Source of the DNA: a virus
Virus record (IMG/VR): IMGVR_UViG_3300021440_000075
Span: 1 to 36,326 of that record
Reading direction: 5' to 3' (one strand)
DNA: 36,326 bases
The notes beneath the pieces are model-generated. The model did not search any database. It was not told the DNA's origin and was given only the letters and a program-made list of their open reading frames with translations. Below, in pieces: positions 10,187 to 25,074 of this stretch (positions are counted from its first letter, which is position 1; every line of letters starts with the position of its first letter). The position numbers and the translations under genes are program-made.

Positions 10187-10216
10187 TATTTTCTCACTCA
10201 CTCAAATTGGTTTTAT

Positions 10217-10801: not shown

Positions 10802-10826
10802 GTTATTCTCCTATTAATAAAAGTAT

Positions 10827-10855: not shown

Positions 10856-10858
10856 CTA

Positions 10859-10946
10859 TTAAAGAAGGGCTGACGTGGCAAGATTTATCAGGACCCCTAG
10901 GTTTATATTAATTAATAATTATCGTATCCTGGCGGCACCTCTAGGT
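10859..10946. repeat. Copy 1 of a repeated ~87-bp promoter-upstream element
   Basis: Positions 10859-10886 are identical to 16528-16555 (28 bp, containing GGGCTGACGTGGCAAG). Similarity continues with loss of exact match: ACCCC-(T)-AGGT, an AT-rich ATTAATTA stretch, TCGT, and GGYRCCTC. In this copy GGCAC (10934-10938) can pair with GTGCC (10956-10960), running into the 3' end of the dCMP deaminase gene. Each copy lies just before a similar promoter and after a stop codon, suggesting an activator site or a structured RNA that separates transcripts. Confidence 0.7.
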
Positions 10947-10948
10947 CA

Positions 10949-11437
10949 TCAGGATGTGCCAAATTTTAATATCCCAGGAAAAAATATAATATAATTGCGA
11001 CCTGTCTCTCTAGAATTAGTCATCCACAAATTAAGAGCATCTTCATCGTAGACTTTTAAGAATACAAGCAATTTACATGATGTGTTCATCAACATCTTCA
11101 TACAATGCATGCAAGGAGATGCACTAGTATAGCATATCTCTATTTCATTCACATTAGCGCATTGCATAAGTGCATTCTGTTCAGCATGCACTGCCTCACA
11201 TATGTGCAAACCTTCTCTAGAAGGTAGTTCTGATCCGGCACAAGGGTAGTTAATACAATGAGTCATTCCAGTTGCATTACCATTGTAACCACTACCAATT
11301 ATGTGGTCATGCCTGTCTACCAATATACAGCCCACTTGTCTTCTAATGCATGTAGACTGTTCAGACAAATTTGTAGCCATTTTTAAGAACGTAACATGCT
11401 TTTTAGGCCTAGTAGCTTGTTGATTGTCGTTTGACAT
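10949..11437 (-). CDS. dCMP deaminase
   Basis: 162 residues from ATG 11437, chosen over the upstream start (11467) because GGAGG lies about 6 bases before it. Zinc site of the cytidine/dCMP deaminase family: H84-A-E86 with the catalytic Glu, and PCMHC giving C109 and C112. N-terminal substrate-loop features (RRQVGCILVD, GYNGNATG) are typical of dCMP deaminases. It converts dCMP to dUMP, the substrate of the ThyX encoded two genes upstream. It overlaps the dUTPase gene by 29 bases. Confident. Confidence 0.9.
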   Translation of the reverse strand: MSNDNQQATRPKKHVTFLKMATNLSEQSTCIRRQVGCILVDRHDHIIGSGYNGNATGMTHCINYPCAGSELPSREGLHICEAVHAEQNALMQCANVNEIEICYTSASPCMHCMKMLMNTSCKLLVFLKVYDEDALNLWMTNSRETGRNYIIFFPGILKFGTS

Positions 11438-11807
11438 TTTTCCTCCAAACTTTATCGTACTCTTCATTAATGTTTTCTGGAGTTATGCCTACTGCTAAAC
11501 AAATGTTTAGGCAAAAACATAGCATATCAATAGCTTCTGATCTAACGCTTTCATTAGTTTCAAATTTTTCAGCTGTTAAATCTTTATGCTCTTTACACCA
11601 GGGCTTATAAATAGCTTTATTCCCATTCCCTATAGCCAATAGTATTTCTGTAACTTCTTCATCCATGAAGAATGCATGATCTTTAATGTAGTCTATAACT
11701 ACTCCTTTTTCAAAAAACTGTAGGCCATACTTATTAGGATGTACTCCATGATGATTGAGCTTAATTAGAGCTAATAATTCTAATTGTTTTTGAAGTATTT
11801 CGTTCAT
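11409..11807 (-). CDS. Probable dUTPase of the all-alpha NTP-pyrophosphatase type
   Basis: 132 residues, all helical. Features of dimeric dUTPase / MazG-like enzymes are present: EEVTE (metal-binding Glu pair) near residue 50, a second acidic helix (SEAIDMLCF) near 90, and the closing EEYDKVWRKN...RQ. The expected reaction is dUTP to dUMP plus pyrophosphate, keeping uracil out of DNA and feeding ThyX. A related MazG activity on another dNTP cannot be excluded. Its ATG overlaps the ThyX stop (ATGA). Confidence 0.75.
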   Translation of the reverse strand: MNEILQKQLELLALIKLNHHGVHPNKYGLQFFEKGVVIDYIKDHAFFMDEEVTEILLAIGNGNKAIYKPWCKEHKDLTAEKFETNESVRSEAIDMLCFCLNICLAVGITPENINEEYDKVWRKNVKRQSTSY

Positions 11808-12706
11808 ATCGCATCAATCTCCTTTAACAATTGTTCACGAAGTTCGAGGTATACTTCACCACCAGGGAATTCTTCACGCCCTATTGGGTGAAAGAATTGA
11901 GATTCATTCCATTCAAAGACGTCATTCTTTTCATTAGGTGGGAATATGTTCGTTTTGCCCGCCAACGACTGTTTAATGTAGAATGAATCTTGACGCCTAA
12001 AGTCTACACAGCTTTTGAGGAATGGGTACAGTTTCAATACTTCAAGCCATAGTTTCATAGCTATTACATTGTCAACTGTAGTTTGAATTTGTTCGTCCCC
12101 TCGCATTGCACAATATCCGACAAGGTCTTTGATACAACATCTAACCATGTAAAAGTGTTCAAAGCAACGAGGCATAATTGTACGAGCATCTAGGCCGTGG
12201 ACCTTTCCAGAATCCATCATGTCAATGTACAATTGATGGCACATTTTTACAGCAGCCCTATATCGGTCGTAGAATTCTTCATTGACCATTATGCTTGGCT
12301 TAACAACTACTCTATCATCGCGCATATCTCTATCGCCATGACACTGAGCACTAAAACTAAATAGGCGGTGGCGAATAAGATGTGTAGTATCAATAAGGTC
12401 CATACCCGATACTCCCCAGCAAATGCCAATAGTCTCCATACCTGTAGGCAATATGTTTCCAGAAAATAGCTCTCTGATGCATATGTCGATGTCTTCTTCA
12501 TTGAAACCTTCGTACTTTAGCTTATCATTCCATGTGTTCATCATAAACACAGAAATTGTGTCACGGAATTGTTGTATTGTAGGAGCACTGAATATCTTCA
12601 CTTCAATGTTGTTTAGCTGTTCTACAAACTCTAAGTGCCCAGATTGGCCAAACTTAGGCTTAGTGTGAAGTGGTGCGATATCTAATTTGTTAAGACTTTT
12701 TGGCAT
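11804..12706 (-). CDS. thyX: Flavin-dependent thymidylate synthase
   Basis: 300 residues. The ThyX signature is visible at 112-120 (RHRLFSFSA), followed by the catalytic and substrate region and a late ARTIMPRCF...VGYCAMR segment matching the dUMP/FAD-binding helices. It makes dTMP from dUMP with FAD, NADPH and methylenetetrahydrofolate. Somewhat longer than cellular ThyX (about 220-250), with an N-terminal extension of about 20 residues and a C-terminal one. It forms an operon with dUTPase and dCMP deaminase, which supply dUMP. Confidence 0.9.
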   Translation of the reverse strand: MPKSLNKLDIAPLHTKPKFGQSGHLEFVEQLNNIEVKIFSAPTIQQFRDTISVFMMNTWNDKLKYEGFNEEDIDICIRELFSGNILPTGMETIGICWGVSGMDLIDTTHLIRHRLFSFSAQCHGDRDMRDDRVVVKPSIMVNEEFYDRYRAAVKMCHQLYIDMMDSGKVHGLDARTIMPRCFEHFYMVRCCIKDLVGYCAMRGDEQIQTTVDNVIAMKLWLEVLKLYPFLKSCVDFRRQDSFYIKQSLAGKTNIFPPNEKNDVFEWNESQFFHPIGREEFPGGEVYLELREQLLKEIDAI

Positions 12707-12980
12707 TTTGTTCTCCTTTAATTAGTTTGTGGTAGATCATTTGAGCATAGTGCGCTATTTTCAAACAGTCCATGGCGTCATGGTGTTCACGACTGTTTTT
12801 ACCTAGACGAGTAATGTATCTATGCAAATTAAGGCGGCATTCTTCTAAACTATATTCAGAAGCTAAGTCATCACTCTTATCTCCATACTGAGGTATCACA
12901 TATTCTCTAATGTGAACAACTACCTCAGCTGAAAATTCATTCCAATCTATTTCTTTACCACTGAAATCGTTTGTACGCAT
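12690..12980 (-). CDS. Hypothetical protein between HD phosphohydrolase and ThyX genes
   Basis: 96 residues, mainly helical and acidic (VHIREYVIPQYGDKSDDLAS, then LHRYITRLGKNSREHHDAMD). His and Asp are frequent, but no defined metal motif is present. It overlaps the gene before by 26 bases and ThyX by 17. Association with nucleotide genes suggests a supporting role, but I do not recognise the family. Confidence 0.6.
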   Translation of the reverse strand: MRTNDFSGKEIDWNEFSAEVVVHIREYVIPQYGDKSDDLASEYSLEECRLNLHRYITRLGKNSREHHDAMDCLKIAHYAQMIYHKLIKGEQNAKKS

Positions 12981-13482
12981 ACAGTTCTTCCTCTGCTGAT
13001 GTTATTCTTGATTTAGTCTCATCTAGTACTTTTTTCATGTACTTGTTATCACTAAGTTTAAGCTCATGATTAGCATATTGCATACATTGTATAATGTCTG
13101 CATAGTGCACAATTTTGGATTCGATTGTGAAATGTTCTTTATGTTCTAACCATAATCGATATACTGGAGCTGGGAATTCTCTTTCAGCGATTTCAGCTTC
13201 TGCTTCCTGTACAGCCAACGCAATTTTTGGAAATAATTTTTTAGTTGGCACAGTAATGTCATCAATCCACGATTCTGTCCAATCATGCATAACAGCCATT
13301 GTGACAGCCGATCCAAGATCGAAATCATAGTCTTTGTGTAGTCTAATGACTATGCAAGCAACAAAGAAAGAATGTTCAGCTACAGATTCGCTTAACACTC
13401 TAGGCACAGTTGAGTACCGCTGGATGTGAGACAAATTGTAGATTTGAGAATAAAAGCTCTCTAAAGTCGAATCACTACTCAT
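12955..13482 (-). CDS. HD-domain phosphohydrolase, YfbR/DatZ-like
   Basis: 175 residues. HD-fold motifs in order: R22 (early Arg), AEHSF with H37, MHDWTE with H66-D67-x-x-E70, and HYAD with D129. This matches YfbR-like 5'-deoxynucleotidases and the similarly sized DatZ dATP hydrolases of 2-aminoadenine phages. The likely reaction is dephosphorylation of deoxynucleotides. No PurZ-like gene is seen in this window, so the general nucleotidase reading is preferred. It overlaps the deoxyribosyltransferase-like gene by 8 bases. Confidence 0.8.
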   Translation of the reverse strand: MSSDSTLESFYSQIYNLSHIQRYSTVPRVLSESVAEHSFFVACIVIRLHKDYDFDLGSAVTMAVMHDWTESWIDDITVPTKKLFPKIALAVQEAEAEIAEREFPAPVYRLWLEHKEHFTIESKIVHYADIIQCMQYANHELKLSDNKYMKKVLDETKSRITSAEEELYAYKRFQW

Positions 13483-13912
13483 ATTGCATTCCTTCAGCTG
13501 GTTTTACATCATAGAAATAGCCATACTTTTGATAGTTGGCCACTTGGTTGTACAACTCTTCATACGTGTGCACAACCTTGCCTGATGCAGCTAACATAAT
13601 ATTAAACTTAAGCTCAGGCTTCCATCCTAACCATATGTATAGCACTGGCACTCCTTTAGCGAATGCATAACCGCATTCCCATATTGTACCCACATCTTTA
13701 CCATCTGTAACTGCAATAATGTATTTACAGTTGTTGATAGCCATGCAGTTTCCTAACAACACTGTTAATGGGTCGTCCCCTGGCTTCCACAGGTTGGCAT
13801 CCTTAGGCGAGAAGTAATCTACTTCGTTGTCTGACAATACGCCTTTTACTTTTTGTAAAATAGCGTCCTGTTCTTCTGTAAACCAAGGTGCTGCAATGTA
13901 CACTTTACTCAT
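13475..13912 (-). CDS. Nucleoside 2-deoxyribosyltransferase-like protein
   Basis: 145 residues from ATG 13912, which overlaps the upstream stop (ATGA); an earlier start at 13927 lies inside the upstream gene. The Rossmann-like fold of PF05014 is visible: VYIAAPWF at the start, then VTDGKDVGTIWECGYAFAKG with E79 as the probable nucleophile Glu, and FNIMLAAS near the C-terminus. Members exchange bases on deoxynucleosides or, like Rcl, cleave deoxynucleoside monophosphates. Here it sits with HD, ThyX, dUTPase and dCMP deaminase genes and probably reshapes or scavenges the host pool. Exact substrate unknown. Confidence 0.8.
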   Translation of the reverse strand: MSKVYIAAPWFTEEQDAILQKVKGVLSDNEVDYFSPKDANLWKPGDDPLTVLLGNCMAINNCKYIIAVTDGKDVGTIWECGYAFAKGVPVLYIWLGWKPELKFNIMLAASGKVVHTYEELYNQVANYQKYGYFYDVKPAEGMQYE

Positions 13913-14427
13913 AGTGGAATCCCCCATTGTTTTGAAAGTTTGACTAATGTTTCTGCTTGTGCGATGGCGTCACACAGTGCATGGTGGGGCATAATAGGCT
14001 TTGTGTAAGCCGCTGGGCAAAACAGGTTTTTTACTGTACGGAAGCATCTGTTGTTTCGATAAGACCAGCCCTTTATGCCAAGCCGCTTTAAATGATTTTG
14101 TATAATGGCATTGTCAAAATCAACACCGTTGCCCCATACGCATGAATTACCGACAAAGCCTACTAGTTGTTCTAGGCAATCTCTAAGGGGCTTAGCCGTC
14201 CCAGTTGCGAGGGCTTCACGAGCTTCTGTTGTCTGAGTTAGCCACCACTGTACCGTGGCATAATCCATATCACCCTCCCATTGAGGCAACTCATAGAAGC
14301 AGTTTTCTGGATTTAGCAATGGTTCTTTAAAGTCTGTATCTGCACCAAACTTAAAGGCACCAATAGAGACCACGCAAGCATTCATGCCAGTGCCCATTGT
14401 TTCAATATCTAGCATTACATGTTTCAT
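13909..14427 (-). CDS. DnaQ-like 3'-5' exonuclease
   Basis: 172 residues. DEDD-type motifs: LDIETMG (D7, E9), WGNGVDFDNAII in the middle, and HHALCDAIAQAE with the H-x4-D pattern that marks DEDDh enzymes. The layout resembles the short ExoVIII-like/Rv2179c-like exonucleases common in phages. It could trim DNA or RNA ends in replication or degrade host nucleic acid. It is distinct from the polymerase-associated exonuclease at 19953. It ends in ATGA overlap with the deoxyribosyltransferase-like gene. Confidence 0.85.
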   Translation of the reverse strand: MKHVMLDIETMGTGMNACVVSIGAFKFGADTDFKEPLLNPENCFYELPQWEGDMDYATVQWWLTQTTEAREALATGTAKPLRDCLEQLVGFVGNSCVWGNGVDFDNAIIQNHLKRLGIKGWSYRNNRCFRTVKNLFCPAAYTKPIMPHHALCDAIAQAETLVKLSKQWGIPL

Positions 14428-14430
14428 TTG

Positions 14431-14619
14431 TTATTTCTCCCGTGTGTCTACACTGTCAATATACGCTACTACTAGAGCTACTTCTTCTGGATGCAGTCTT
14501 GCAAATTCTACTATCTTATCTTTCATATTAAATACCCCAAAGTCCCTTGGTTGTATGCTATGGTTGCGTAAAAAGTTTTGGTATTTGGCTTGCTCATATT
14601 GCCACCTCTTTTGATTCAC
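14431..14619 (-). CDS. Small helical protein; start uncertain (GTG 14619 or ATG 14526)
   Basis: The 62-residue frame from GTG 14619 overlaps the upstream gene by 26 bases. An alternative reading is two chained miniORFs: ATG 14597 (in ATGA overlap with the upstream stop, AGAGGTGG before it) giving 24 residues, whose TGA at 14523-14525 overlaps ATG 14526, giving the last 31 residues of this frame (MKDKIVEFARLHPEE and onward). The C-terminal helix is shared by both readings. Function unknown. Confidence 0.45.
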   Translation of the reverse strand: MNQKRWQYEQAKYQNFLRNHSIQPRDFGVFNMKDKIVEFARLHPEEVALVVAYIDSVDTREK

Positions 14620-14902
14620 TTACGCTGGCCTTTAACAAGTCGATTTCTCTTTGTAGCCTATTGTTTTCTTCTAATATATCATTTATATCTATATCAGTAG
14701 GCTCAACAAACTGGTCAGAGTAAATTTTTACAAGTCTCCATTCCATATCATTCTCTTTCCACTTTGTCTCCCTTGTGCTAGACCAACCATCTTGTTCAAA
14801 TGTCTTAGCGTTAGTGGCAAGATATAAAATTGCGCTTTCTGGAATAAAATCTGTATCTAACTCAACAATTTGCTGGTAACTTGTTTGTAAATAATATTTC
14901 AT
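14594..14902 (-). CDS. Hypothetical protein with C-terminal coiled coil
   Basis: 102 residues from ATG 14902, which overlaps the lipoprotein stop (TGATG) and follows AGGGGAAGG. The N-terminal 70 residues are mixed alpha/beta and rich in Trp, Tyr and Glu. Residues about 75-97 (INDILEENNRLQREIDLL) form a short leucine-heptad coiled coil, suggesting a dimer. No catalytic motif seen. Unassigned early protein. Confidence 0.6.
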   Translation of the reverse strand: MKYYLQTSYQQIVELDTDFIPESAILYLATNAKTFEQDGWSSTRETKWKENDMEWRLVKIYSDQFVEPTDIDINDILEENNRLQREIDLLKASVSESKEVAI

Positions 14903-15084
14903 CACCTTCCCCTATTCATATCGCGCAGTTGGTCATTGCGTCGCATTTGGTAAATTGTTAAGTATTCTCCCATTCTTTGATAATGGTCTTCCGCTTCTGG
15001 GCTATACGCAACAGGTCGCCCATCACCGAACCAAAACTCATGTGAGCAGCCAGTTAAGCATAGCAATAGTATTAAGTATTTCAT
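14902..15084 (-). CDS. Small lipoprotein
   Basis: 60 residues with a lipoprotein signal: MKYLILLLCLTGC, lipobox LTGC with the modified Cys at 13. The mature part has 48 residues, charged and aromatic, ending in MRRNDQLRDMNRGR. The ribosome site TTTGGAG is clear. Lipid modification would place it in the envelope. A lipoprotein gene in an early/replication operon, away from the lysis cassette, is typical of superinfection-exclusion lipoproteins such as Llp or Cor, but that role is only inferred; an Rz1-like function is less likely because of position. Confidence 0.7.
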   Translation of the reverse strand: MKYLILLLCLTGCSHEFWFGDGRPVAYSPEAEDHYQRMGEYLTIYQMRRNDQLRDMNRGR

Positions 15085-15111
15085 TACATATCTCCAAAGT
15101 TAAATGTTACT

Positions 15112-16461
15112 CTATTTTAATAAAGCTTCTAGTAAAGCTGATTGAAGCTTGTCTTTCTTATCTAATACTTTCATAATGTTTTCATCCACAGTATTTTTAG
15201 ACACAATGTGGTGAATCGTTACAGTATTTTTAACTCCCTGCCTATGAACCCGCCTATTAGCTTGTTCATACAATTCTAAATCAAACGGTATGCTAAACCA
15301 CACGACAGCATTGCATGTTCCCCCTTGTAAGTTTAACCCATGGCCGCCGGCCTGTGGCTGTAAATATAATAAGGGTAATTTACTATTGTTCCAATCGTTA
15401 ATCGTTTTACCTAACGTTTTTGAATCAACTCCTGCGCCAATATGTGGAGCCGGCAATACGCTTTTTAAGCGAGATAAGTCATGGTTATATTCGTAAATCA
15501 CTAATAGTGGTCTGCCGCCTAGTTCTTCAAGTAAGTCTTCAATAACCTTAACTTTTTCCATGTGTAGTATGACATGCTCTCTATTTTCATTGTATATACC
15601 TCCATTTGATATTTGTTTTAATTTACTCCCTGCTGTAGCAGCATTTACAGCAACTGCCAATTGTTCCTCTCCATATTCAGCAATGTAGTGCTTTTTCATA
15701 TCGTTATACATAGTTCTTATCTTGGGCGATAACTCTATTTCGATAGTGTTATACATAATTTCCGGTAAGTCAAGCTCATTAGAGCTTTTATGCATAATAA
15801 TATCGTTAACTGAACTATAGATGCGTTGTTCAGAACCTTCTATAAGTTCGTATGCATAACCCATGTATCCAGCCGGCCTAAAATATGTGTTTCTAAATTG
15901 TGTAATGTATTTACTTAAACGTTTGCCTTGATCTAATATGAAGACTTGTGGCCATAGTTGTATAAGCCCGTTAGGCGCAGGCGTTCCGGTTAGGATAACT
16001 CTGCGCACAAATAAAGGCAATAAACGCTTTAGTATCTTGAATCTCTGGCTTGTATGATTCTTAAATAATGTGGATTCGTCACAGACTAACATCCATTTAT
16101 TCTTTTTAAACAAAGAAATATCTTTTGATAGCCATGGTAGTCCATCTGGATTGATAACATATATGTCCACGTTCTTTTTAACGGTCTTGTTTTTATCTGA
16201 TCCATGTAGAACACATATTTTTAAGTCTTGAAAAGGTTCCCATTTTAGAACCTCACTTGGCCACACAATTGATGCGACTCTTAAAGGCGCGATTACGAAC
16301 AATTTATCAACAACGCCTTGGCTTTTCAATAGTTTATATGCTAACAATGTGATAGCAGTTTTGCCTAAACCCGGGTCTAGGAATAAACCCGCGTTTTCGT
16401 GACTGCATAGCCATCTTACTGCATCTATGCCATATTGTTTCATTATGAGTTGTTGAGCCAT
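15112..16461 (-). CDS. SNF2-family DNA helicase/translocase
   Basis: 449 residues, with both RecA-like halves. Motif I DPGLGKT (29-35), Ia IAPLRV, motif II DEST (128-131), motif III GTPAPN, motif V GGHGLNLQ and motif VI RRVHRQG. Shorter than cellular SNF2 proteins, as usual in phages. It probably translocates on duplex DNA, remodelling replication or recombination intermediates. Its neighbours are a VRR nuclease and a Cas4-like nuclease. It follows its own promoter (16486-16514), with AGGA about 8 bases before the ATG. Confidence 0.9.
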   Translation of the reverse strand: MAQQLIMKQYGIDAVRWLCSHENAGLFLDPGLGKTAITLLAYKLLKSQGVVDKLFVIAPLRVASIVWPSEVLKWEPFQDLKICVLHGSDKNKTVKKNVDIYVINPDGLPWLSKDISLFKKNKWMLVCDESTLFKNHTSQRFKILKRLLPLFVRRVILTGTPAPNGLIQLWPQVFILDQGKRLSKYITQFRNTYFRPAGYMGYAYELIEGSEQRIYSSVNDIIMHKSSNELDLPEIMYNTIEIELSPKIRTMYNDMKKHYIAEYGEEQLAVAVNAATAGSKLKQISNGGIYNENREHVILHMEKVKVIEDLLEELGGRPLLVIYEYNHDLSRLKSVLPAPHIGAGVDSKTLGKTINDWNNSKLPLLYLQPQAGGHGLNLQGGTCNAVVWFSIPFDLELYEQANRRVHRQGVKNTVTIHHIVSKNTVDENIMKVLDKKDKLQSALLEALLK

Positions 16462-16485
16462 AGCGTATCCTGTTAATTTATGTAT

Positions 16486-16514
16486 ATTTTATTATCATAA
16501 TTTTAAGTAATAAA
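16486..16514 (-). promoter_or_regulatory. Sigma70-like promoter before the SNF2 helicase gene
   Basis: Minus strand: TTTATT, 17 bases, TAAAAT. The -35 region (AGTTTATTAC) is the same as at 10850-10855, and the same 28-bp block lies just upstream. The predicted start gives a leader of roughly 18 bases before the helicase ATG. Confidence 0.5.
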
Positions 16515-16527
16515 CTTATATTTTCAT

Positions 16528-16612
16528 TTAAAGAAGGGCTGACGTGGCAAGATTTTTATATACCCCAGGTAATATATTAATTATAAATTTTCGTGTCATC
16601 ACGGTGCCTCAG
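16528..16612. repeat. Copy 2 of the repeated ~87-bp promoter-upstream element
   Basis: 16528-16555 is identical to 10859-10886; the following ACCCCAGGT, ATTAATTA and GGTGCCTC segments match copy 1 with changes. In this copy CGTG (16592-16595) pairs with CACG (16600-16603), CCAGGT (16565-16570) can pair with ACCTGG near 16637, and TCACA/TGTGA near 16622-16636 form another hairpin. The 193-bp gap 16462-16654 holds only this element and the helicase promoter. Confidence 0.7.
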
Positions 16613-16654
16613 ATTGTCCTAGATCACACGATTGTGACCTGGATAATATTAATT

Positions 16655-16840
16655 TTATAAATAATCAGGCCAAAAGAAATCGTTGTTAATTGGGAGCTTA
16701 CATAGTTTTTTGCTTATCGGCGCGATATCACCAGCCGAATAAAAAGTATGTTCTTTCTTAGGTTTAATATAGTTCTTTTTATAAAGCCATATCTTTAAGA
16801 TTGAATTAGGCGTCATCATCCTGTAACTATTTTTAGCCAT
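16655..16840 (-). CDS. Hypothetical basic protein
   Basis: 61 residues, Lys- and aromatic-rich (ILKIWLYKKNYIKPKKEHTF), overlapping the end of the VRR-NUC gene by 25 bases. The ribosome site is weak. It may be a small DNA-binding protein or a chance frame; it is retained because it lies on the coding strand between two genes and fills otherwise empty sequence. Confidence 0.45.
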   Translation of the reverse strand: MAKNSYRMMTPNSILKIWLYKKNYIKPKKEHTFYSAGDIAPISKKLCKLPINNDFFWPDYL

Positions 16841-17091
16841 TGGTCTACTTCTTCTTTCGTTGATATTACAATGTAATTCAGAGTATGTTTTCTCATTTCT
16901 TTTCCCACATGTTCTTGCATAGGCGATAGCCGGCCAGTTGGGGACTTAGTCTCTATTGCCCAAATTTGTTGGCGTACAAATGCTATTCTATCGGGTACCC
17001 CTTTGTTGCCAGGTGATACCCACTTATAGCATTTGCCGCCTAACTTTTCAACCTGTTGTTTCAGGTATCGTTCGACCGTTTTCTCTAACAT
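16816..17091 (-). CDS. VRR-NUC domain nuclease
   Basis: 91 residues, a stand-alone VRR-NUC domain (PD-(D/E)XK superfamily). Motifs: GVPDRIAF with D34, WAIETKS with E47 and K49, and LSPMQE with Q59, in the order of the family. Such phage proteins are thought to cut branched DNA structures, perhaps acting as junction resolvases with the adjacent helicase. I see no clear ribosome site, and the 33 bases to the upstream cargo gene are AT-rich. The cargo gene (17125-18087) separates it from the Cas4-like nuclease gene. Confidence 0.85.
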   Translation of the reverse strand: MLEKTVERYLKQQVEKLGGKCYKWVSPGNKGVPDRIAFVRQQIWAIETKSPTGRLSPMQEHVGKEMRKHTLNYIVISTKEEVDQWLKIVTG

Positions 17092-17124
17092 TTATTCATG
17101 AACAATCTTTATCTTTTTCTAGCA

Positions 17125-18087
17125 TTATTTTAATTTGTTTAATGTGCTGTCATATAGCAATGATTGAGGATCATATCCCATTTTAATTAAAGTGTCTATA
17201 GGAGAAATATTTTCTAAAGATTTATTAGATTTATTTAATCTATTTTCTATCATTCTAGCTTGTGCTTCATGCGCTGCAGATTGATATATTTCTTTGTAAG
17301 GATTAGTTTGAAAATTATTTAATCTTTTATTGTTAATACCGACTATATTTTGAAGTATATTGAAGTTATCTGGATTATCTAATTCATCTGATAATCTTTC
17401 TAATCCAAATTCATGCGTAGTCCCATTATGCTCTTGTATTGAATGAGTTAGTTCGTGCAACAATGTTTTTAATGAATTTTGATGATTTGTCCCAATATTA
17501 ACAACATCATTTCCTGTAGACATAGAACTAGATAAATAAGAACCTTTTGTGTTTTGAGGTTTAATTTCTACAGATTCAAGATAAGGGTAATTATCGTATA
17601 GTTGTTGATGCGATAAAAACTCTTTAAGTGAGCCTTTTGTTGACATAGGTTTTAACAATTTAGCATTTATATCTGGAATTTCACTTAACATTATTTTTTG
17701 CCCTTTTGCTGTTTCCCATGGGTACATTTTTGTTGCTTTCCAGATTTCAGATAGATTGGAACCTTTTTCTAACATGGATTTTGCTGTATTGGCTAGTTTT
17801 TCTGAATAATCTTTAGATAAAGGGCTCAAAATACTTCCCACAATTCCAGATCCTGAAGGAGCAAAAGGCATACCCCCTGTTTGCGCTAAACCAGCAATAT
17901 TTATAGCTCCCTCAACTTGTGCGTATGGATTATCAGAATACATAGTTTTATCCATATTATTCTTAATAAAATTACTAAGATGTTTTAAAGCATTTAAAGG
18001 GTGATTTATGCTTGATGCGATAGTACTATCACTCGGCTTAAAATTTGATTGTTTAAAATTTTTTACTAATTTATCTAAACTACTCAT
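17125..18087 (-). CDS. LPD23-like zinc metallopeptidase with shared N-terminal sorting-like domain
   Basis: 320 residues from ATG 18087, chosen because CAGGAG sits 8-13 bases upstream, inside the last codons of the Cas4-like gene. Residues 1-87 match the N-terminus of the protein at 28142 (shared DS..SSI.HP, AGL.QTG.MPF, GSI). Residues 105-138 (EIWKATKMYPW ... SEIPD) and the zincin site HELTH (211-215) with AAHEAQAR (271-278, E274 probable third ligand) match the LPD23 peptidase of polyvalent phage proteins. It is AT-rich and sits between two nuclease genes, like an inserted cargo gene. A protein delivered with phage DNA is inferred. Confidence 0.75.
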   Translation of the reverse strand: MSSLDKLVKNFKQSNFKPSDSTIASSINHPLNALKHLSNFIKNNMDKTMYSDNPYAQVEGAINIAGLAQTGGMPFAPSGSGIVGSILSPLSKDYSEKLANTAKSMLEKGSNLSEIWKATKMYPWETAKGQKIMLSEIPDINAKLLKPMSTKGSLKEFLSHQQLYDNYPYLESVEIKPQNTKGSYLSSSMSTGNDVVNIGTNHQNSLKTLLHELTHSIQEHNGTTHEFGLERLSDELDNPDNFNILQNIVGINNKRLNNFQTNPYKEIYQSAAHEAQARMIENRLNKSNKSLENISPIDTLIKMGYDPQSLLYDSTLNKLK

Positions 18088-18089
18088 TT

Positions 18090-18731
18090 TTATCTCCTGT
18101 ATAATGGACAAATGTTTTGTACATGGCAGTACTTACAGTATTGGTTCTTGGTTGGCTTAAATTCTGTATCATTGTGAATCTTGGCCGCCTTTTCATTCCA
18201 TAGCGCAACGTCTTCTTCTAGAGTGTCTCTAGTAAAAGTATAGTCATGCACTTCGCCTGAAGCTAAATACCAAAATTCTATGTGGACTTCCTTTTCATCT
18301 GTTCGTACCATGTGAGCATTAGCATATAACCGCGCTTGATTCACATGCTCCTCATAGTGCTTACCTGTTTTGAAGTCAATCACATAGTTGTCTATTCTAG
18401 CATCTAGCTTCATACGAAGCCATGCATCCTCATGGAACCAACCGTCTGGAATGAACTCCCACTTATCATTAAATGTAAGTGCCTCTTCAGGGATGGCACC
18501 ATGCTTTTTAAGATTCATGAACTCTTTAGAGAACTTTCTAAGTACGGCAGGTACTCCGTCTATATTACCTTTGAGATATTCCTCCGCCATACTGTGTGCA
18601 GTAATACCTTTTGTTAGAAAGTACGACGGAGGTTCTTCAATTTTGTCTATCTTTATACATTTGTACTTAAATGCGCATTGTTCATACAAATTTAATGTAG
18701 ATAGAGACCAACTTGGCTTCTTAATCTTCAT
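18090..18731 (-). CDS. Cas4/RecB-like PD-(D/E)XK nuclease with probable Fe-S cluster
   Basis: 213 residues. N-terminal C19 in LYEQCAFKYK, H46 in GITAHSMAEEYL, the catalytic core LDARIDNYVIDFKTGK (D114, D119, K121) and the Q-x3-YA motif (Q132). The C-terminal CKYCHVQNICP gives C199, C202 and C208, which with C19 fit a 4Fe-4S cluster as in Cas4/AddB. Likely an exonuclease for replication or recombination ends. It overlaps the polymerase gene by 11 bases. Confidence 0.85.
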   Translation of the reverse strand: MKIKKPSWSLSTLNLYEQCAFKYKCIKIDKIEEPPSYFLTKGITAHSMAEEYLKGNIDGVPAVLRKFSKEFMNLKKHGAIPEEALTFNDKWEFIPDGWFHEDAWLRMKLDARIDNYVIDFKTGKHYEEHVNQARLYANAHMVRTDEKEVHIEFWYLASGEVHDYTFTRDTLEEDVALWNEKAAKIHNDTEFKPTKNQYCKYCHVQNICPLYRR

Positions 18732-19956
18732 ATACTTTCATATCTCCAAAGTTAGGCCCTATTTTGCCTTCTGATCTTAAAGGCACGTCCCATCCTGGGA
18801 TATTGTCCATACAATATTTTAGCAATACCATCTCTTGTTCGTAGCAGTCCTCAGGGGCTGATACCACTATTTCATCATGCACTACCAGTACAATACGACC
18901 TTTACGATCAGGATGATAGTAGTATCTATTCATTGCCTCCTTGGTCATGTCGGCGCTGCTACCTTGTATGAGTACATTACCTAGTTTATAGTAAAATTCA
19001 CGTCTACGGCCGTTCACCATAGCAGCTGGTTCTACATCATAAAGGCGGCCTCCCCATGTGCGAATACGTTGCCCACTTCTAGCCATCTTTTCAACAACTT
19101 TCATAAGGTCTTTAAACTCTGGTAAAGCCTCGTCGTATGCTTGAAAGAATATTCTAGCTTGGCTATCAGGTATACCTAACATTAATGCAAGCTTGCCTGG
19201 TCCGCCGCCATATAGTTTTAAGAACGAAATAGTTTTGGTAACTACACGGTTCAACTGCTGGCCTGTAGTGTCCTTTATCATTTGTTGAACCCATGTATGT
19301 ACGTCCAACAATGGGTTTTGCATATATGCTTCAAGTATGTTACCTTCAGCATAGTGCGCAGTTACACGTAACTCCTGGCCATTGAAGTCTCGTTTAATTA
19401 GCATATGCCCGATCTCAGGGTAGACTAATGAACGTAAGTTAGGGGTATCGTCGTCAGGTGGGTTACGTGGCAACTGTTGGAAGTTGGATGACATACGACC
19501 TGTGCGAGTTCCATAGTCGTTATCTCCTCTAGTCTGTTGAAAATAAGGATAGTATCTGCCCTTATACCTTTTGGCAGATGTGGCCATAGGGTTAATGTAC
19601 GTGCCTAAAGCTTTTTGTAGTTTTGAACGTATTTCAAGAACGTGTCTTAGCTCATCATCTTTAATCAAATCAGCTAAGAACTCCCGGCCATAGCGTGGAT
19701 TACCTTTTTCTGTGTACTGTAGCTTAGACTCGTCAATTAACCCTTTCTTTCTGGCAGCAGTAAACCATGCTTTAGTGCCCGGCTCAGCTGGAACAATTTT
19801 AGAGAGATATTTCTCACCGTTGTCAAACTTGTTTTGCCAAAACTGTTGTTGTGCTTGTATAGTAGGAGCAAGCTGGACACCTTGTCTTTCCATGTCGATA
19901 ATGACAGGAATGAGGTCCATTTCTCTTTTATACGCATCTTTAGTTAGATGTTTCAT
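18721..19956 (-). CDS. DNA polymerase I (family A), polymerase domain as a separate gene
   Basis: 411 residues holding only the palm-fingers-thumb part. Landmarks: RTGRMSSNFQQLPR (151-164), motif A IKRDFNGQELR with D190, motif B R237-x3-K241-x3-F245-x3-Y249-G, motif C VVHDEIV with D361. The residue matching E. coli F762 is Phe (F245). No exonuclease domain is present; it is encoded by the gene before, whose TGA overlaps this ATG (ATGA). The polymerase starts at the usual linker between domains, so this looks like a natural split rather than a truncation. Confidence 0.92.
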   Translation of the reverse strand: MKHLTKDAYKREMDLIPVIIDMERQGVQLAPTIQAQQQFWQNKFDNGEKYLSKIVPAEPGTKAWFTAARKKGLIDESKLQYTEKGNPRYGREFLADLIKDDELRHVLEIRSKLQKALGTYINPMATSAKRYKGRYYPYFQQTRGDNDYGTRTGRMSSNFQQLPRNPPDDDTPNLRSLVYPEIGHMLIKRDFNGQELRVTAHYAEGNILEAYMQNPLLDVHTWVQQMIKDTTGQQLNRVVTKTISFLKLYGGGPGKLALMLGIPDSQARIFFQAYDEALPEFKDLMKVVEKMARSGQRIRTWGGRLYDVEPAAMVNGRRREFYYKLGNVLIQGSSADMTKEAMNRYYYHPDRKGRIVLVVHDEIVVSAPEDCYEQEMVLLKYCMDNIPGWDVPLRSEGKIGPNFGDMKVYED

Positions 19957-20501
19957 TTAGCTTCCTCTATAATAGGTATGAAGAAGTTGTAAAGAGCATA
20001 CGTCATATCGACGTCAGCACAAGCATATTTGCCGACTAAATCACCCGGGGCTTTACATATGTATGCGCCCCATGTCTTTTCGGTGGCAGCGGGTACATTA
20101 CGTAGTATCCAGTTCTTCAAATCAGTTTGCTCATCAGGCGGTATGCCGCAATATTTTAAGACGAGGTCTTTAAGCTTAAGTGACTCGTCTCTAGGGTCGT
20201 TCAAATAAGCCATAATCATTGTATCATTAAGCCGCCAAGATGGAACAGGAATGCCAAACCATTCTTCTAATATTCTGTTGTCGAATTTAGCATTATGCAT
20301 AACAATGATATCATCGGTTGAGTTCACAATGTATTCTAACCGTAAATCAGCAGCCTCGAGACTACAGTTGTTTTTCGTAGGATGCCCCCAAGCCAGATAG
20401 TCTGCCGGTTCATCATTAAATTTTATAGCAACGCCTACGGGCTCTGGTGATACATCAGACCCTGGCACAATAGGATAAGTTTCGAAATCAATTGTGTACA
20501 T
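19953..20501 (-). CDS. DNA polymerase I 3'-5' exonuclease domain as a separate gene
   Basis: 182 residues from ATG 20501 (TGATG junction with the gene before). DEDDy motifs: TIDFET with D5 and E7, HNAKFDNRIL in the middle, and YACADVDMTYALY near the end. LKLKDLVLKYCG is also typical of the PolA proofreading domain. It should act with the polymerase encoded directly downstream. The 4-base overlap between the two genes suggests equal production and assembly as one two-subunit enzyme. Confidence 0.9.
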   Translation of the reverse strand: MYTIDFETYPIVPGSDVSPEPVGVAIKFNDEPADYLAWGHPTKNNCSLEAADLRLEYIVNSTDDIIVMHNAKFDNRILEEWFGIPVPSWRLNDTMIMAYLNDPRDESLKLKDLVLKYCGIPPDEQTDLKNWILRNVPAATEKTWGAYICKAPGDLVGKYACADVDMTYALYNFFIPIIEEAK

Positions 20502-20704
20502 CAATGGTCCTCCATTCCTTCGAAGAGAGCATCAAAACAGTCTTCGCAATAGCCTGATATTTTAGTTTCAGTCCAACCTGCTTTTGTATGCACATTGGCA
20601 TCTGAGAATGCCTGGTCACAACTAATACACAACCCTTTTTCCATATTTGACAAAGTAAGACCGGCAATTTTAGCTGATTCTTCTTTTAAGTCTTGTAGCG
20701 ACAT
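20501..20704 (-). CDS. Small Cys-rich (zinc) protein
   Basis: 67 residues with CISC near residue 26 and CEDC near 54, making a four-Cys zinc site around a Trp/Thr/Lys-rich loop. TTTGGAG precedes the ATG. Its stop overlaps the exonuclease start. Position suggests a replisome accessory or nucleic-acid-binding protein; the family is not recognised. Confidence 0.65.
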   Translation of the reverse strand: MSLQDLKEESAKIAGLTLSNMEKGLCISCDQAFSDANVHTKAGWTETKISGYCEDCFDALFEGMEDH

Positions 20705-20721
20705 TTCATATTCTCCAAAGT

Positions 20722-20758
20722 AAATAGGGGATAATTTTATCCCCTATTTGTTATTATA
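20722..20758 (-). promoter_or_regulatory. Promoter-like -10 followed by a strong 12-bp stem-loop at the 5' end of the pol transcript
   Basis: Minus strand: TATAAT at 20758-20753 with only a poor -35, then a perfect hairpin in which 20738-20749 pairs with 20722-20733 around a 4-base loop (arms AAATAGGGGATA). The hairpin ends about 12 bases before the TTTGGAG ribosome site of the 20501 gene. If transcription starts here, the stem would cap the mRNA. Otherwise it may be a partial terminator for the ssDNA-binding gene upstream. Another 6-bp stem (20787-20802, CATGCG arms) follows that gene's stop. Confidence 0.5.
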
Positions 20759-20810
20759 ACACGATTTTAATGGTAGAACACTATCTCATGCGATTCCGCA
20801 TGCCTAATGC

Positions 20811-21593
20811 TTATGACATCTTGGATTTTTTCGATGTGCTATTAGCCGGTTCTACATAAGGAGTGTAGCCAGATACGTCATAAGGCGTCGTAACTGTTTC
20901 AACAAAGAAGTCTTTTGCTGCCACAATTTCTTCCAATATAGACTGATCTGAAAGGTCCTCAATGAACACAGGATTGATTTTTGGCCAGTCCTCATCTTCG
21001 TCCATAACAAGCTTTGTTGCCACTGACCATACTGGACGACTACGACGGATAGGTATACTTTTTGCATACGACGCCCATGCCTTCAATGACGTAGGAGGTA
21101 GACGGACTATTGCTAGTTCTTCAACTCCCACATAGTTGTCGTCACCGTCGTATGCAGCTAGTAGTAGCCTACGGCCGTTTTTGCAGGCCTTACCTTTACC
21201 TTGTGTAGCTGTGCCATACTCATTGTTAGGGCAACCGCTACATGTTGGGTGTTGCGGATTAGGCGAACTTGGGTGTGGTGCCATATCTTCGCCATCTACT
21301 GATAACGAAAAGCACGCCGGAGGCACAACAGTATCGGGGTCATAAGGCCGGTCATAGTACGAGTTGTCGTATGCTGTAGCCAATACAACACAGTCCATAG
21401 ATGTGCCTAGTTTCGTATCATCTAATGTGAACTTCTTGCCCTTGATACTGATAAAAGGCGTAGAAGCTTTCTCAATAGACGATGCTGTTGATGCCGCCTG
21501 TTGTAACAGTTTAGTCATTTCTGATGTTAACATTACTTCAGTCGATTTCGGGGTTTGTACTTGTATTTCTGTTGACTCGCTTTCTTTTGTCAT
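20811..21593 (-). CDS. Putative ssDNA-binding protein
   Basis: 260 residues. The N-terminal 45 residues are low-complexity Ser/Thr/Glu. The core is beta-rich (about 48-215) with a Cys cluster (CSGCPNNEYG ... ACKNGRRL, around 118-142) that probably binds zinc. The C-terminus is Ser/Lys-rich. Phages with this gene order (this protein, then split or whole PolA) often have it annotated as ssDNA-binding, which is my reason for the call; no sequence motif proves it. It overlaps the upstream gene by 4 bases (ATGA). Confidence 0.5.
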   Translation of the reverse strand: MTKESESTEIQVQTPKSTEVMLTSEMTKLLQQAASTASSIEKASTPFISIKGKKFTLDDTKLGTSMDCVVLATAYDNSYYDRPYDPDTVVPPACFSLSVDGEDMAPHPSSPNPQHPTCSGCPNNEYGTATQGKGKACKNGRRLLLAAYDGDDNYVGVEELAIVRLPPTSLKAWASYAKSIPIRRSRPVWSVATKLVMDEDEDWPKINPVFIEDLSDQSILEEIVAAKDFFVETVTTPYDVSGYTPYVEPANSTSKKSKMS

Positions 21594-21958
21594 GATTTCG
21601 TTACCCGAATAATAGTTGTTTCAAATGTAGTAATACCCGGAATGACCTCTCCATTTTCAATCCTATCAGACCATGCTGTAGACGATAGTCGTCTATGAAG
21701 AAGATCAAATGCGCTATGTTGATGTACGAAGGAGTATAGGGCATCCCATTCAGCAACAATAGGCTTTGTTTGCTTAAGGAGGTTAATCCTGGCAACAGGC
21801 AATGTCATTGAAGTAAGGTCTAACTCCTTCATTTCACATATAATAGCATCTTTAAGGCTATCTACTACTTCTTTTTGTTCAGCTGCTTGTCTGTCTAAAA
21901 CTTTTTGACGATCTAAAGCTACAATCAGCTGAATAGATAACTCTTTTAAAGATGGCAT
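21590..21958 (-). CDS. Conserved-looking replication-block protein, unknown
   Basis: 122 residues. The first 50 form a helix with heptad character (LDRQAAEQKEVVDSLKDAI). The rest contains KPIVAEWDALYSFVHQ and DLLHRRLSSTAW, then GEVIPGITTFETT. I recall similar proteins directly upstream of the putative ssDNA-binding protein in other phages, without known function. Likely a partner of that protein or of the polymerase. It is separated by 3 bases from the gene before. Confidence 0.6.
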   Translation of the reverse strand: MPSLKELSIQLIVALDRQKVLDRQAAEQKEVVDSLKDAIICEMKELDLTSMTLPVARINLLKQTKPIVAEWDALYSFVHQHSAFDLLHRRLSSTAWSDRIENGEVIPGITTFETTIIRVTKS

Positions 21959-21961
21959 TGC

Positions 21962-22339
21962 TTACGCAGCTTCTTCAACTGTTTCAACTTCGTTTTGGTC
22001 AACCAGTGCAAAAACAACTTCTATTTCAGCAGGAGTTGGATTTTCTTCAGTGATTTCGCTGGAGGGCGCCATACGAGTATATGTTCCATCCTTTTTAAGC
22101 GCGTTACGAGCAGCAGGCCAGTCTTTGACTTTATCCAAATTGTGTGCGACCAACGCTGCACATAATGTGGTGTGGGCGACGCCATTGGCGGTTACCTGTA
22201 CTCTTGACTTAGACACGCCACGTTGTGCTGCACTAATTTTTTTGCCAGCTTCTGTTTGTTCTTTTTCGGGTGCTTCAGTTAAGTCGTTTTCGATTTCAGC
22301 TGATGCTTCGTTTTCTTTGAACATTGATGATTTAGCCAT
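21962..22339 (-). CDS. Regulator-like protein, paralogue of the gene at 25890
   Basis: 125 residues. Acidic N-terminus (to about 30), a conserved core (31-85) with KKISAAQRGVSK, a TLCAAL helix and KDWPAARNALKK, and an acidic C-terminus. The core matches the protein at 25890-26264. The KIS-x-AQ-x-G segment followed by a TLC/AL helix is reminiscent of NUMOD-type DNA-binding modules, which makes a DNA-binding role plausible but unproven. First gene of the minus-strand block, behind promoter 22403-22430. Confidence 0.6.
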   Translation of the reverse strand: MAKSSMFKENEASAEIENDLTEAPEKEQTEAGKKISAAQRGVSKSRVQVTANGVAHTTLCAALVAHNLDKVKDWPAARNALKKDGTYTRMAPSSEITEENPTPAEIEVVFALVDQNEVETVEEAA

Positions 22340-22402
22340 CTTAATTTTCCTCTTTAGATTAAGTTAATGTTAATACAATAGGATATTTATCCTACAGAGT
22401 TA

Positions 22403-22430
22403 ATTATATCAGGATATTGATAGTTGTAAA
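22403..22430 (-). promoter_or_regulatory. Leftward early promoter
   Basis: Minus strand: TTTACA (22430-22425), 16 bases, TATAAT (22408-22403). The -35 box is part of the TAATAGTTTACA motif. The sequence from -35 to -10 closely matches the promoter at 26321-26348 that precedes the paralogous gene. It would drive the whole minus-strand replication block. Confidence 0.65.
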
Positions 22431-22485
22431 CTATTATTTTACGCTCACACGTGTACGTGATATAAGGAATAATTAATAGTTTACA
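22425..22485. promoter_or_regulatory. Paired inverted operator motif between divergent promoters
   Basis: TGTAAACTATTA (22425-22436) and its exact reverse complement TAATAGTTTACA (22474-22485) face each other 37 bases apart and cover the -35 boxes of both divergent promoters. ACACGTGT (8-bp palindrome) lies between them. The symmetry suggests one protein that controls both directions. Related half-sites form the palindrome at 26431-26457. Confidence 0.6.
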
Positions 22486-22508
22486 TCTGTATTATTAAAG
22501 AGTATAAT
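22480..22508 (+). promoter_or_regulatory. Rightward promoter for the primase operon
   Basis: TTTACA (22480-22485), 17 bases, TATAAT (22503-22508): an almost ideal sigma70 promoter. The -35 box overlaps the operator motif. The predicted leader runs about 85 bases and contains the hairpin at 22556-22606 before the first gene. Confidence 0.7.
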
Positions 22509-22555
22509 GATAGGGTCATATCTGACACTTGCTATCGACGGGTAGTAAGTCATAC

Positions 22556-22606
22556 CTCCATAAGTGGGTTGGTCCTACATGTTTGTGTAGGACTTGCTCT
22601 ATGGAG
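22556..22606 (+). promoter_or_regulatory. Two-tier hairpin in the primase operon leader
   Basis: Inner stem GTCCTACA (22572-22579) with TGTAGGAC (22586-22593), loop of 6. Outer stem CTCCATA (22556-22562) with TATGGAG (22600-22606). The outer stem includes the ATG at 22601, so the RNA could hide that start codon. The two perfect stems (8 and 7 bp) are unlikely by chance. A fold switch or a translation control is possible; I do not recognise a known riboswitch. Confidence 0.55.
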
Positions 22607-22867
22607 ATTTCAATTACTTATGATGAGGCTATTATGAATGAAGACGAATTGTCTCATAACTCTTTTTTGGAAGGGTTTGAGGATGGCTATGAATGTGGTT
22701 GTGGTGATCCAGACACAGTTTGGGGATATTCTTTTTCAAGGTATGGGCGATATGAGTCCGTACTATCTGAGTACTATCAAGACTGCTATAACATTGGTTT
22801 TAAGTTTGGCCGGCAAGCCTCTATATGTGACTACAATGACGTCGCCTTAAGAGAGAGTGGCCAATGA
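22601..22867 (+). CDS. Small protein, first gene of the primase operon
   Basis: 88 residues from ATG 22601; ATG 22634 (MNEDELSHNS, AGG before it) would give 77 and avoids the hairpin. Upstream frame to 22529 contains the leader and is not favoured. The protein is acidic and rich in Gly, Tyr and Cys (EDGYECGCGDPDTVWGYSFS), possibly a zinc or protein-binding domain. Its stop overlaps the primase ATG (22864) by 4 bases. Function unknown. Confidence 0.6.
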   Translation: MEISITYDEAIMNEDELSHNSFLEGFEDGYECGCGDPDTVWGYSFSRYGRYESVLSEYYQDCYNIGFKFGRQASICDYNDVALRESGQ

Positions 22868-25074
22868 CATCATTTAAACGTGAAGGTTCCAGTACAGGGA
22901 CAGGAAATGAATATGTAATTGGCGGAGGTATAGGAAGAATATTAGAACGTAACTTCAGGTTTAACCCTGATGGCATACCACAAGAGCTCAAGGATAGAGC
23001 ACAATGGGTTGTATGGGCTCATTTAGAGACGTCTCAAACAGAAGAACAAAAGGCACAAGGTGTACCACCTATTGCAGGAAAACTTCCTGTGTACGTTAAG
23101 AAGATCGATAGAGGGCATCTAGTAGGTCGAGCACTTTGGAGAGATAAGAGCTATTTATTAACATTCGATGAAGCTCTTAGGCGTTACAATGCGCATTCTT
23201 CAGTCATACATGGTGTTGGATTCGTTTTTAGTGACGACGACCCATTTACAGTCATTGATATCGACAAAGTTACAGAGACAGACGACGAACGACTACTGTT
23301 TATTAAAGGCAACACATGGTGTGAAGTTAGCCAGTCTGGCAAAGGTTATCATATTGTAGTTAAAGACGTTTCTGTAGGGACTAAAGTCAATGCAGGTACA
23401 GGAGTTGAGATATACAGTAAAGGCCGGTTCATTGCCATGACGGGTAATGTGAGCATAGGCTGTCCTTTACACATTATTAGCGACCAACAGTTGGTTAATG
23501 ATGTGGTGGTGTACCATACTGCCCATAGTAAGGGCGGGACATTGACGGGAACGAAATACGAAAAGAAGAAGGTAGTGTCTTCGGGTGGCCGAAACAATGA
23601 AATGTTTGCGTTCATTGGCAGCTGTGTATGGAAGGGCTACACAAGAGAACATACAATTGTTGCTTGTAGACAATATAATGATGAATGCTTTGTTCCTCCT
23701 TTGGACGAACAAGAATATCTAAGTATGGTCCATGAGCAATTCAAGAAGGCGTCCAGAGTTGCACAGGATGCGATAGATTCTATACTATTACGGTATGTAT
23801 TGATACGCGATTGTAATCGTTGGTGGGATTTTACACATAAAGTATGTGTCGTGGATGATGCTATCAATAAAGAGCATCAGCATATGTTTAAGGGCACCAA
23901 AGGCGAACTGCCTAAGCTGAACAAGTTCTTATGTGACTCACCTAGTTTGCAAACTGTTACGTCACTAGGTTGGCGGCCGATACCTTGGGGAATGGAGGAC
24001 GACAATTCACATAAGTTTTACAAAATAGACGGCTGTGAGTTTGTCAACACATGGAAAGGCTGGGGCTGTGCGCCTGTGGCTGGAGACGTTAGTGTGTGGT
24101 TAGAACTGTTGACACATTTGGTGCCAGAGGATGAATATCGCCGCCAACTGCTTATGTGGTTATCGTACATGGTGAGGCATCCAGACAAGAAATGCCAATG
24201 GCAAATAGTGTTGTTAGGCGTATCTGGTGCAGGTAAAGACTCATTGTTTAAACCCTTATCTGCTATATTCGGTTCAGCATCTAAACCTATTGGTAATGAA
24301 GACATCAAAGGATCTTATGACGACGGTCTTATTGGCACTAAGTTGCTACATGTGTCTGAAGTTAGAGGGCTACGGGGCGATTCAATTGAGAAGATGAAAC
24401 GGTTTTGTGCTAGTGAAAATACATCGTTGATGATGCTTAACCCTAAAGGTATGACGAAAGTCTACGTAGAGAACCTTTGGTCAGTTGTTATTATAACGAA
24501 CGACTATGGAGCGCTAGCTCTTGATATGAATGAACGAAGGTTTTACGTTTTAAATTCTAGTAAAGTTATGAGTGAGAGCCTTCAGTCGCGCTATTATACA
24601 TGGTTTATGAGCGGTGGTAGTTGCGCGCTTATGCATTATTTGTTGTATGATGTCGATATTAGCGATTTTAATCCTCATCAGTTGCCAGAACGGACCGTAC
24701 ATTTTTATAATATGCATGACTCCACAAGGAATGATATGGAGAGCATTTTAAGTGATATGAATGAAAATAAAGTAGGCTTGTTCTCACATGATTTGATATT
24801 CCCGGACCATGCTTGGAGTATGCTAAGAATGAAGGATGTTATGTGCCCTGCTTCTAAAGTGATGACATGGCTTAAACAGAATGGTTGGGATTCATACAAT
24901 GGCTCGTTTAAGATTATGAAAAAGATGAATGGTGAAGTTAATTGTAAATCGAGGCATTGGCTATACAGGATTGGAGGTGCTTTTGACTATAATATACATA
25001 AAGTTGGTAGTGTTGAAGTGTGGCTCGAATGTGATCGTATAGAGAAATTTGTCACAAACAATGGTAAATTTTGA
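22864..25074 (+). CDS. Primase-helicase: PrimPol-like N-terminus and SF3 helicase
   Basis: 736 residues. Residues about 100-195 show archaeo-eukaryotic primase motifs: VIDIDK (D132, D134), SGKGYH (158-163) and VEIYSKGRFIAMTG. The C-terminal half is an SF3/D5-like helicase (DUF5906-type): Walker A GVSGAGKDS (452-460), Walker B KLLHVSEV, sensor region VVIITND and MNERRFYVL. It unwinds DNA and primes synthesis for the split PolA on the opposite strand block. The iteron cluster starts two bases after its stop. Confidence 0.85.
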   Translation: MTSFKREGSSTGTGNEYVIGGGIGRILERNFRFNPDGIPQELKDRAQWVVWAHLETSQTEEQKAQGVPPIAGKLPVYVKKIDRGHLVGRALWRDKSYLLTFDEALRRYNAHSSVIHGVGFVFSDDDPFTVIDIDKVTETDDERLLFIKGNTWCEVSQSGKGYHIVVKDVSVGTKVNAGTGVEIYSKGRFIAMTGNVSIGCPLHIISDQQLVNDVVVYHTAHSKGGTLTGTKYEKKKVVSSGGRNNEMFAFIGSCVWKGYTREHTIVACRQYNDECFVPPLDEQEYLSMVHEQFKKASRVAQDAIDSILLRYVLIRDCNRWWDFTHKVCVVDDAINKEHQHMFKGTKGELPKLNKFLCDSPSLQTVTSLGWRPIPWGMEDDNSHKFYKIDGCEFVNTWKGWGCAPVAGDVSVWLELLTHLVPEDEYRRQLLMWLSYMVRHPDKKCQWQIVLLGVSGAGKDSLFKPLSAIFGSASKPIGNEDIKGSYDDGLIGTKLLHVSEVRGLRGDSIEKMKRFCASENTSLMMLNPKGMTKVYVENLWSVVIITNDYGALALDMNERRFYVLNSSKVMSESLQSRYYTWFMSGGSCALMHYLLYDVDISDFNPHQLPERTVHFYNMHDSTRNDMESILSDMNENKVGLFSHDLIFPDHAWSMLRMKDVMCPASKVMTWLKQNGWDSYNGSFKIMKKMNGEVNCKSRHWLYRIGGAFDYNIHKVGSVEVWLECDRIEKFVTNNGKF

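Follow-up and report, generated by a model that had tools for sequence, protein, structure and literature searches.

A shared N-terminal domain before exchangeable C-terminal domains in two phage proteins, a possible virion-sorting or ejection tag

Why do two otherwise unrelated proteins of one phage begin with the same domain? Phages inject enzymes along with their DNA, and to our knowledge few signals are known that put proteins into the particle or carry them into the host. A first-pass annotation of this DNA noticed a common N-terminal part in a metallopeptidase and in a second protein encoded near the portal gene, and proposed that it sorts effectors into the virion or tags them for ejection. 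A short domain that is fused to many enzymes and swapped at one locus of near-identical phages would make a good candidate for a signal of this kind. The finding proved real and richer than first stated; the tag function is treated here as a hypothesis.

The window, i.e. the whole stretch of DNA analysed, is a 36,326-base virus record in full. A minus-strand block encodes DNA ligase, helicase, endonuclease, exonuclease and DNA polymerase; we call it early from its gene content and strand. A plus-strand block encodes primase, terminase, an SU10-type portal, scaffold and a lytic internal virion/tail protein. The two genes lie where they had been placed, one in the early block and the other between terminase and portal, and the strand of the peptidase gene is corrected to minus (ATG at 18087, stop at 17125). 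Its 320-residue product starts with the shared N-terminal domain (NTD, residues 1-90; 17818-18087, minus strand), as delimited by BLASTP and profile matches. An LPD23-like stretch (residues 92-120; 17728-17814), the HExxH zinc-peptidase motif HELTH (residues 211-215; 17443-17457) and the sequence HEAQAR (residues 273-278; 17254-17271) follow on the same strand. The neighbouring minus-strand genes encode an exonuclease upstream (18090-18731) and a phrog_93, VRR-NUC-like endonuclease downstream (16816-17091). The second gene (28142-29056, plus strand; 304 residues) lies between the genes for the terminase large subunit (26733-28139, plus) and the SU10-type portal (29090-31252, plus; Pfam PF23899, E=4.7e-150). 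Its NTD, delimited in the same way, covers residues 1-104 (28142-28453) and is followed by an orphan C-terminal domain with the motifs YRG, YVSRD and NEVLL (28454-29056).

All of the sequence blocks originally listed as shared were found in both proteins. The statement that the N-termini are alike and the C-termini unrelated is borne out by BLASTP (37% identity over 101 residues, 72.4 bits, E=5e-19); the match spans residues 4-89 of the peptidase and 3-103 of the 28142 protein, and elsewhere there is only noise. The likeness also survives profile comparison. In IMG/VR, a search with a degenerate DNA pattern for AGLxQTGxMPF returned 25 stretches, and profile-guided scans of the same collection yielded 43 distinct loci that overlap with these. 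With the NTD profile, for which 22 members were used, 37 unique copies were recovered, namely the two window proteins (E=6e-27 for the peptidase and 2e-38 for the 28142 protein) and 35 others. The nearest relative of each window NTD is a copy in another phage (87% and 85% identity), and the two fall in different clades of the NTD tree. A chance likeness is ruled out by the E-value, and a recent duplication within the genome is ruled out by the closest relatives in other phages and the different clades. Nothing beyond the presence of both copies in one genome speaks for either of these explanations, and their combined probability is negligible.

The domain matched no described family. A Pfam scan of 22 NTD members, LPD families included, returned only two weak, unrelated DUF matches at E≤1, and a PHROG search with the same members gave no match better than E=0.05. 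Sequence matches in the PDB were weak, mostly to retroviral integrase, and at E>0.3 represent noise. Among isolate phages, tblastn recovered no copy, whether the query was either window sequence or a consensus. Judged from these searches, the NTD (~100 residues) is a previously unnamed and undescribed domain family with exchangeable partners. Pairs of NTDs are ~35-50% identical, and 15 columns are invariant in 13 divergent protein sequences. Eight positions are invariant in 22 members (F15, D19, S20, S24, P29, G80, G85 and G98 in the numbering of the 28142 protein). AlphaFold2 places helices at residues 17-27, 29-47 and 68-84, with no confident fold (pLDDT 53, pTM 0.30). The helix at residues ~28-48 is conserved and amphipathic (moment 0.45-0.52), and the QTGxMPF...GTLG segment stops where the partner domain starts. 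A transmembrane reading of the latter was rejected; its 19-residue hydropathy maximum of 0.77-0.93 is too low for a membrane span. A near solo version of the domain occurs in L060 (8285-8815), a 176-residue NTD protein with ~62 residues after the domain, encoded beside the head closure gene Hc3.

Homologues do not share one C-terminus. About a dozen C-terminal types are found behind the NTD: among the 37 unique copies from the phage genomes searched they form 11 sequence clusters, or 12 labels after one cluster is split. The types that can be named are ART-PolyVal (39.6 bits against a cut-off of 31.2), LPD23 with an HExxH zincin, PcfJ (53.9 against 25) and DUF7178 (84.9 against 27); several others are nameless. 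The early suggestion that LPD23-type peptidases belong with polyvalent proteins holds, in that ART-PolyVal, LPD23 and PcfJ are familiar parts of proteins of the polyvalent or conjugation type. The clearest exchange is seen between the window and a sister phage, G001 (contig 3300021440_000083), most of whose late-block proteins are 87-98% identical to those of the window. The portals of the two are 98.5% identical, the terminases 72% and the NTDs at the terminase-portal locus 85%. The G001 allele continues from the NTD into 377 residues ending in a PcfJ domain, and the two C-termini are unrelated save for a 20-residue overlap next to the NTD. Nucleotide similarity ends at 28476 and restarts at 29090, the start of the portal gene, leaving 28477-29089 without similarity. 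A second such pair, L055 and L061, has NTDs 85% and portals 87.5% identical in front of and behind unrelated C-termini. Mapped onto the NTD tree, the C-terminal types require at least 17 changes (the minimum possible is 11), and fully supported sister pairs carry different C-termini. The types are also more clustered on the tree than in shuffles, as inherited fusions would be. Elsewhere in the window, at 10000-25074, the early/replication block is far more diverged from G001 (L042/L043), with helicase at 40%, exonuclease at 27% and primase at 23%, or is missing; this is a module replacement.

Exchange also affects the other side of the junction. The relatives include large mosaic proteins with frames of up to 2,164 residues. 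In these, the same zincin is found behind the NTD or behind a module of the form VPSWVPLAGGxGAGDLLMG...ALTTLAPGVKATEGLP, and the same ART behind the NTD, behind the VPSWVPLAGGxGAGDLLMG module or behind a third module, YPNATKF...VPTTEQMRDPNF. Adjacent genes in L046 carry both front-module types. The NTD itself also occurs in mid-protein positions of large polyvalent ORFs, up to twice per protein, and each such copy directly precedes an effector. One protein combines ART-PolyVal, NTD-zincin and NTD-DUF7178 (L047), and another combines ART-PolyVal and PcfJ (L003). As judged from these arrangements, both slots are exchangeable, the front modules as well as the effectors. The NTD therefore shares its place with other front modules, an observation that speaks for a role common to the whole class and against a unique tag. 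Two unrelated front modules besides the NTD, of the forms YPNATKF...VPTTEQMRDP and AQDQNENLGKLAEMLGSARD...VKATEGLP, stand before the same ART and zincin (L047, L051, L066, L074, L046). One tblastn query with each of the two further front modules found no match in INPHARED. Linkers of the form YA(E/D/Q/K/H)GG(S/E/I/R)V recur between modules (L003, L012, L047, L051, L053, L054, L066, L068, L072, L074), and could be processing sites or flexible joints.

Where do the NTD genes lie in other genomes? Nearly all copies sit among virion genes, and the only early-block copies seen are the window peptidase and its orthologue in a sister contig, L015. An NTD gene is found immediately upstream of the portal gene in the window (28142), G001, L048, L055, L061, L059, L065 and L066-type polyvalents, and upstream of the terminase gene in L077. 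In five portal-adjacent cases the effector stop and the portal start are separated by 0-57 nt. Other copies adjoin the head closure gene Hc3 (L060, L063, L078), a virion structural protein gene (L058), or a tail fibre or head-tail adaptor gene (L086, L088, L089; one gene further in L087). DNA-ejection protein genes share the module with the NTD gene in L087 and L046. Many copies come from related polyvalent contigs and so are not independent; the number of distinct contexts is at least six, and in some contigs, which are short fragments, the surroundings are unreadable. The domain accompanies head machineries that are unrelated to one another (SU10-type portal, Hc3), which makes it unlikely that it docks to one fixed partner.

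Several known systems resemble this arrangement. MuF polymorphic toxins, whose genes lie beside portal genes (Jamet et al. 2017, PMC5576092), likewise have a conserved N-terminal part, exchangeable C-terminal enzymes and portal or terminase neighbours. Adjacency to portal or terminase is found for the window 28142 gene and at least seven further contigs, and the C-termini vary among about a dozen types, whose toxicity is putative. However, the 22 NTD members lack the MuF domain in the Pfam scan, and their genes lie immediately upstream of the portal gene whereas MuF toxin genes lie downstream. MuF toxin genes are followed by a small immunity ORF, for which the five portal-adjacent cases leave no room. 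Because of the missing MuF domain and immunity ORF, we assign the NTD proteins to polyvalent/MuF-like effectors and not to MuF toxins. MuF toxins are also prophage-borne, whereas two scans of 84,980 bacterial and archaeal genomes found no NTD relative at the sensitivity used, which is weak evidence on lifestyle. The lack of an immunity gene and of cellular relatives fits lytic infection better than a toxin of lysogens.

Polyvalent proteins (Iyer et al. 2017, PMC5512222) combine ART, zincin, LPD23 and further recurring domains in mosaic proteins with a virion context and predicted ejection, as the NTD relatives do, and T4 Alt is described as packaged and injected. If a polyvalent protein is taken to have at least two recurring effector or LPD domains in a virion context, the L047 and L003 proteins qualify. 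The window peptidase qualifies through LPD23, weak in itself (E=0.05) and clear in its homologues (best 2.3e-18), and through its fold matches in BFVD, which are LPD-named phage proteins. In contrast to polyvalent proteins, the NTD is mostly found in short two-part proteins, and it is not among Pfam's LPD families. The two-slot organisation, with three front modules and many effectors, does not appear in the portions of PMC5512222 available to us, nor does the word PcfJ appear in its main text. T4 Alt, T7 gp14-16 and P22 gp7/16/20 are enzymes or helical proteins that reside in the head and are ejected along with the DNA (PMC8954989). T4 Alt and the podoviral ejection proteins vary between related phages, as the NTD effectors do; no sequence link to them was found, and the presence of the NTD proteins in the virion is putative. 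Gene 5 of Sulfitobacter phage phiGT1 (QLB38217.1, MT584811) encodes an ART-PolyVal-type protein 36% identical to an NTD-family ART. It lies two genes downstream of the portal gene, within the head module, and its N-terminus is unrelated to the NTD. Pre-toxin domains (Zhang et al. 2012, PMC3482391) resemble the NTD in standing directly before variable toxin domains. They belong to bacterial secreted toxins, with no sequence link to the NTD in the Pfam scan.

Combining these data, the sequence comparisons give good support to the NTD being a front module of effectors, and a function as a sorting or ejection tag is plausible. On the best reading, portal-linked effectors carry it as a front module that is MuF-like without being MuF, and that probably serves virion loading or ejection. 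By analogy with MuF toxins (PMC5576092) and polyvalent proteins (PMC5512222), NTD effectors would be synthesised late and incorporated into the particle, either close to the portal or together with ejection proteins; on infection they would be ejected into the host along with the DNA. The C-terminal enzyme, be it an ADP-ribosyltransferase, a zincin peptidase or a PcfJ domain, would then act on host proteins or defences. The front module would serve the loading or passage of the effector, and the amphipathic helix and the QTGxMPF...GTLG segment could provide the element for loading or passage together with its linker. We regard it as an even call whether the NTD is an exchangeable front ('pre-effector') module of phage effectors that serves virion loading or ejection and is organised like polyvalent proteins and MuF toxins. 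Against it stand the early-block position of the window peptidase, between exonuclease and endonuclease genes, the mid-protein copies, where an N-terminal tag would be needless, the use of different head machineries, which is contrary to one fixed portal contact, and the lack of a confident AlphaFold2 fold. A broader proposal is more tentative still: a polymorphic effector system that is linked to the portal but independent of MuF, in phages that are uncultured and probably lytic, and in which three interchangeable front modules (NTD, 'YPNATKF' and 'AQDQNENLG') load or translocate about a dozen enzymes and constitute an undescribed class of virion-delivery signals.

Chief among the rivals is a generic pre-effector role within the infected cell, where the NTD would anchor, inhibit or present the effector, or be cleaved by a protease; the place in the virion module would then reflect late expression only. 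Mid-protein copies directly before effectors, the filling of the same slot by two unrelated modules, an NTD lineage in the early block and the use across different head machineries all agree with this explanation, and pre-toxin domains are a recognised class (PMC3482391). It fits less well with the adjacency to the portal gene in several divergent SU10-portal lineages and the location among virion genes in nearly all others, which is more specific than what late expression alone would produce, and we consider it rather unlikely. Alternatively, the NTD might be kept mainly as a stretch of homology for the recombination of effector cassettes, with little function of its own. The exchange breakpoints do lie at the end of the NTD, and the domain recurs before several cassettes in mosaic genes. 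However, its invariant columns persist at the pair identities given above; the NTD is too diverged in DNA to provide homology and yet conserved as protein, so selection acts on the protein. This explanation is improbable.

The window peptidase calls for an alternative of its own. The enzyme may act inside the cell instead, as an early protease of host or defence proteins with a leftover NTD, in which case only the 28142 protein would be a virion effector. This concerns the peptidase copy alone and is compatible with a loading or ejection role for the family. In its favour stand the early-block place and the coupling to the exonuclease gene, whose stop lies 2 nt before the peptidase start, an arrangement conserved in the sister contig L015. 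The gene has 29.5% GC, compared with 40.8% in the whole window, which points to acquisition as a separate cassette. The NTD-zincin genes of other phages are located in virion modules, and the place of this copy in the early block therefore seems to be derived. On the other hand, the peptidase NTD retains all invariant residues and shows no visible decay. We place this alternative just below an even chance; the gene looks like a separately acquired cassette with its NTD retained. Promoters around it were no more frequent than in shuffles. The H, E and H of the HExxH motif are invariant in 11 homologues, as expected for a zincin, and Glu274 in HEAQAR, which is near-invariant, is a candidate third zinc ligand. 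The structure model is mostly below pLDDT 50, with the LPD23 region better, and a PDB fold search with it gave nothing significant, so the zincin fold is unconfirmed. The contig of L015 has an extra ORF of 196 residues between its DNA polymerase and exonuclease genes (L002, 4580-5170), with no counterpart there in the window; by eye it looks like a homing-endonuclease-type insertion.

The 28142 protein fits the virion-effector scheme directly. Its C-terminus has no homologue in INPHARED, IMG/VR or the fetched loci, and the protein has no Pfam match. By eye only, the YRG, YVSRD and NEVLL motifs recall those of ADP-ribosyltransferases, enzymes with a characteristic fold and an R-S-E or H-Y-E catalytic triad. 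For this reading neither a profile match nor a PDB sequence match was obtained. The NTD could serve as a search handle, in that anything behind it becomes a candidate anti-host effector, nameless families such as this orphan included. Several NTD effectors, those of window 28142, L048, L055 and L061, end in basic tails (IRRLKRKQ, GEKKRNKK, VDYIKGKK, KDKKRNKK).
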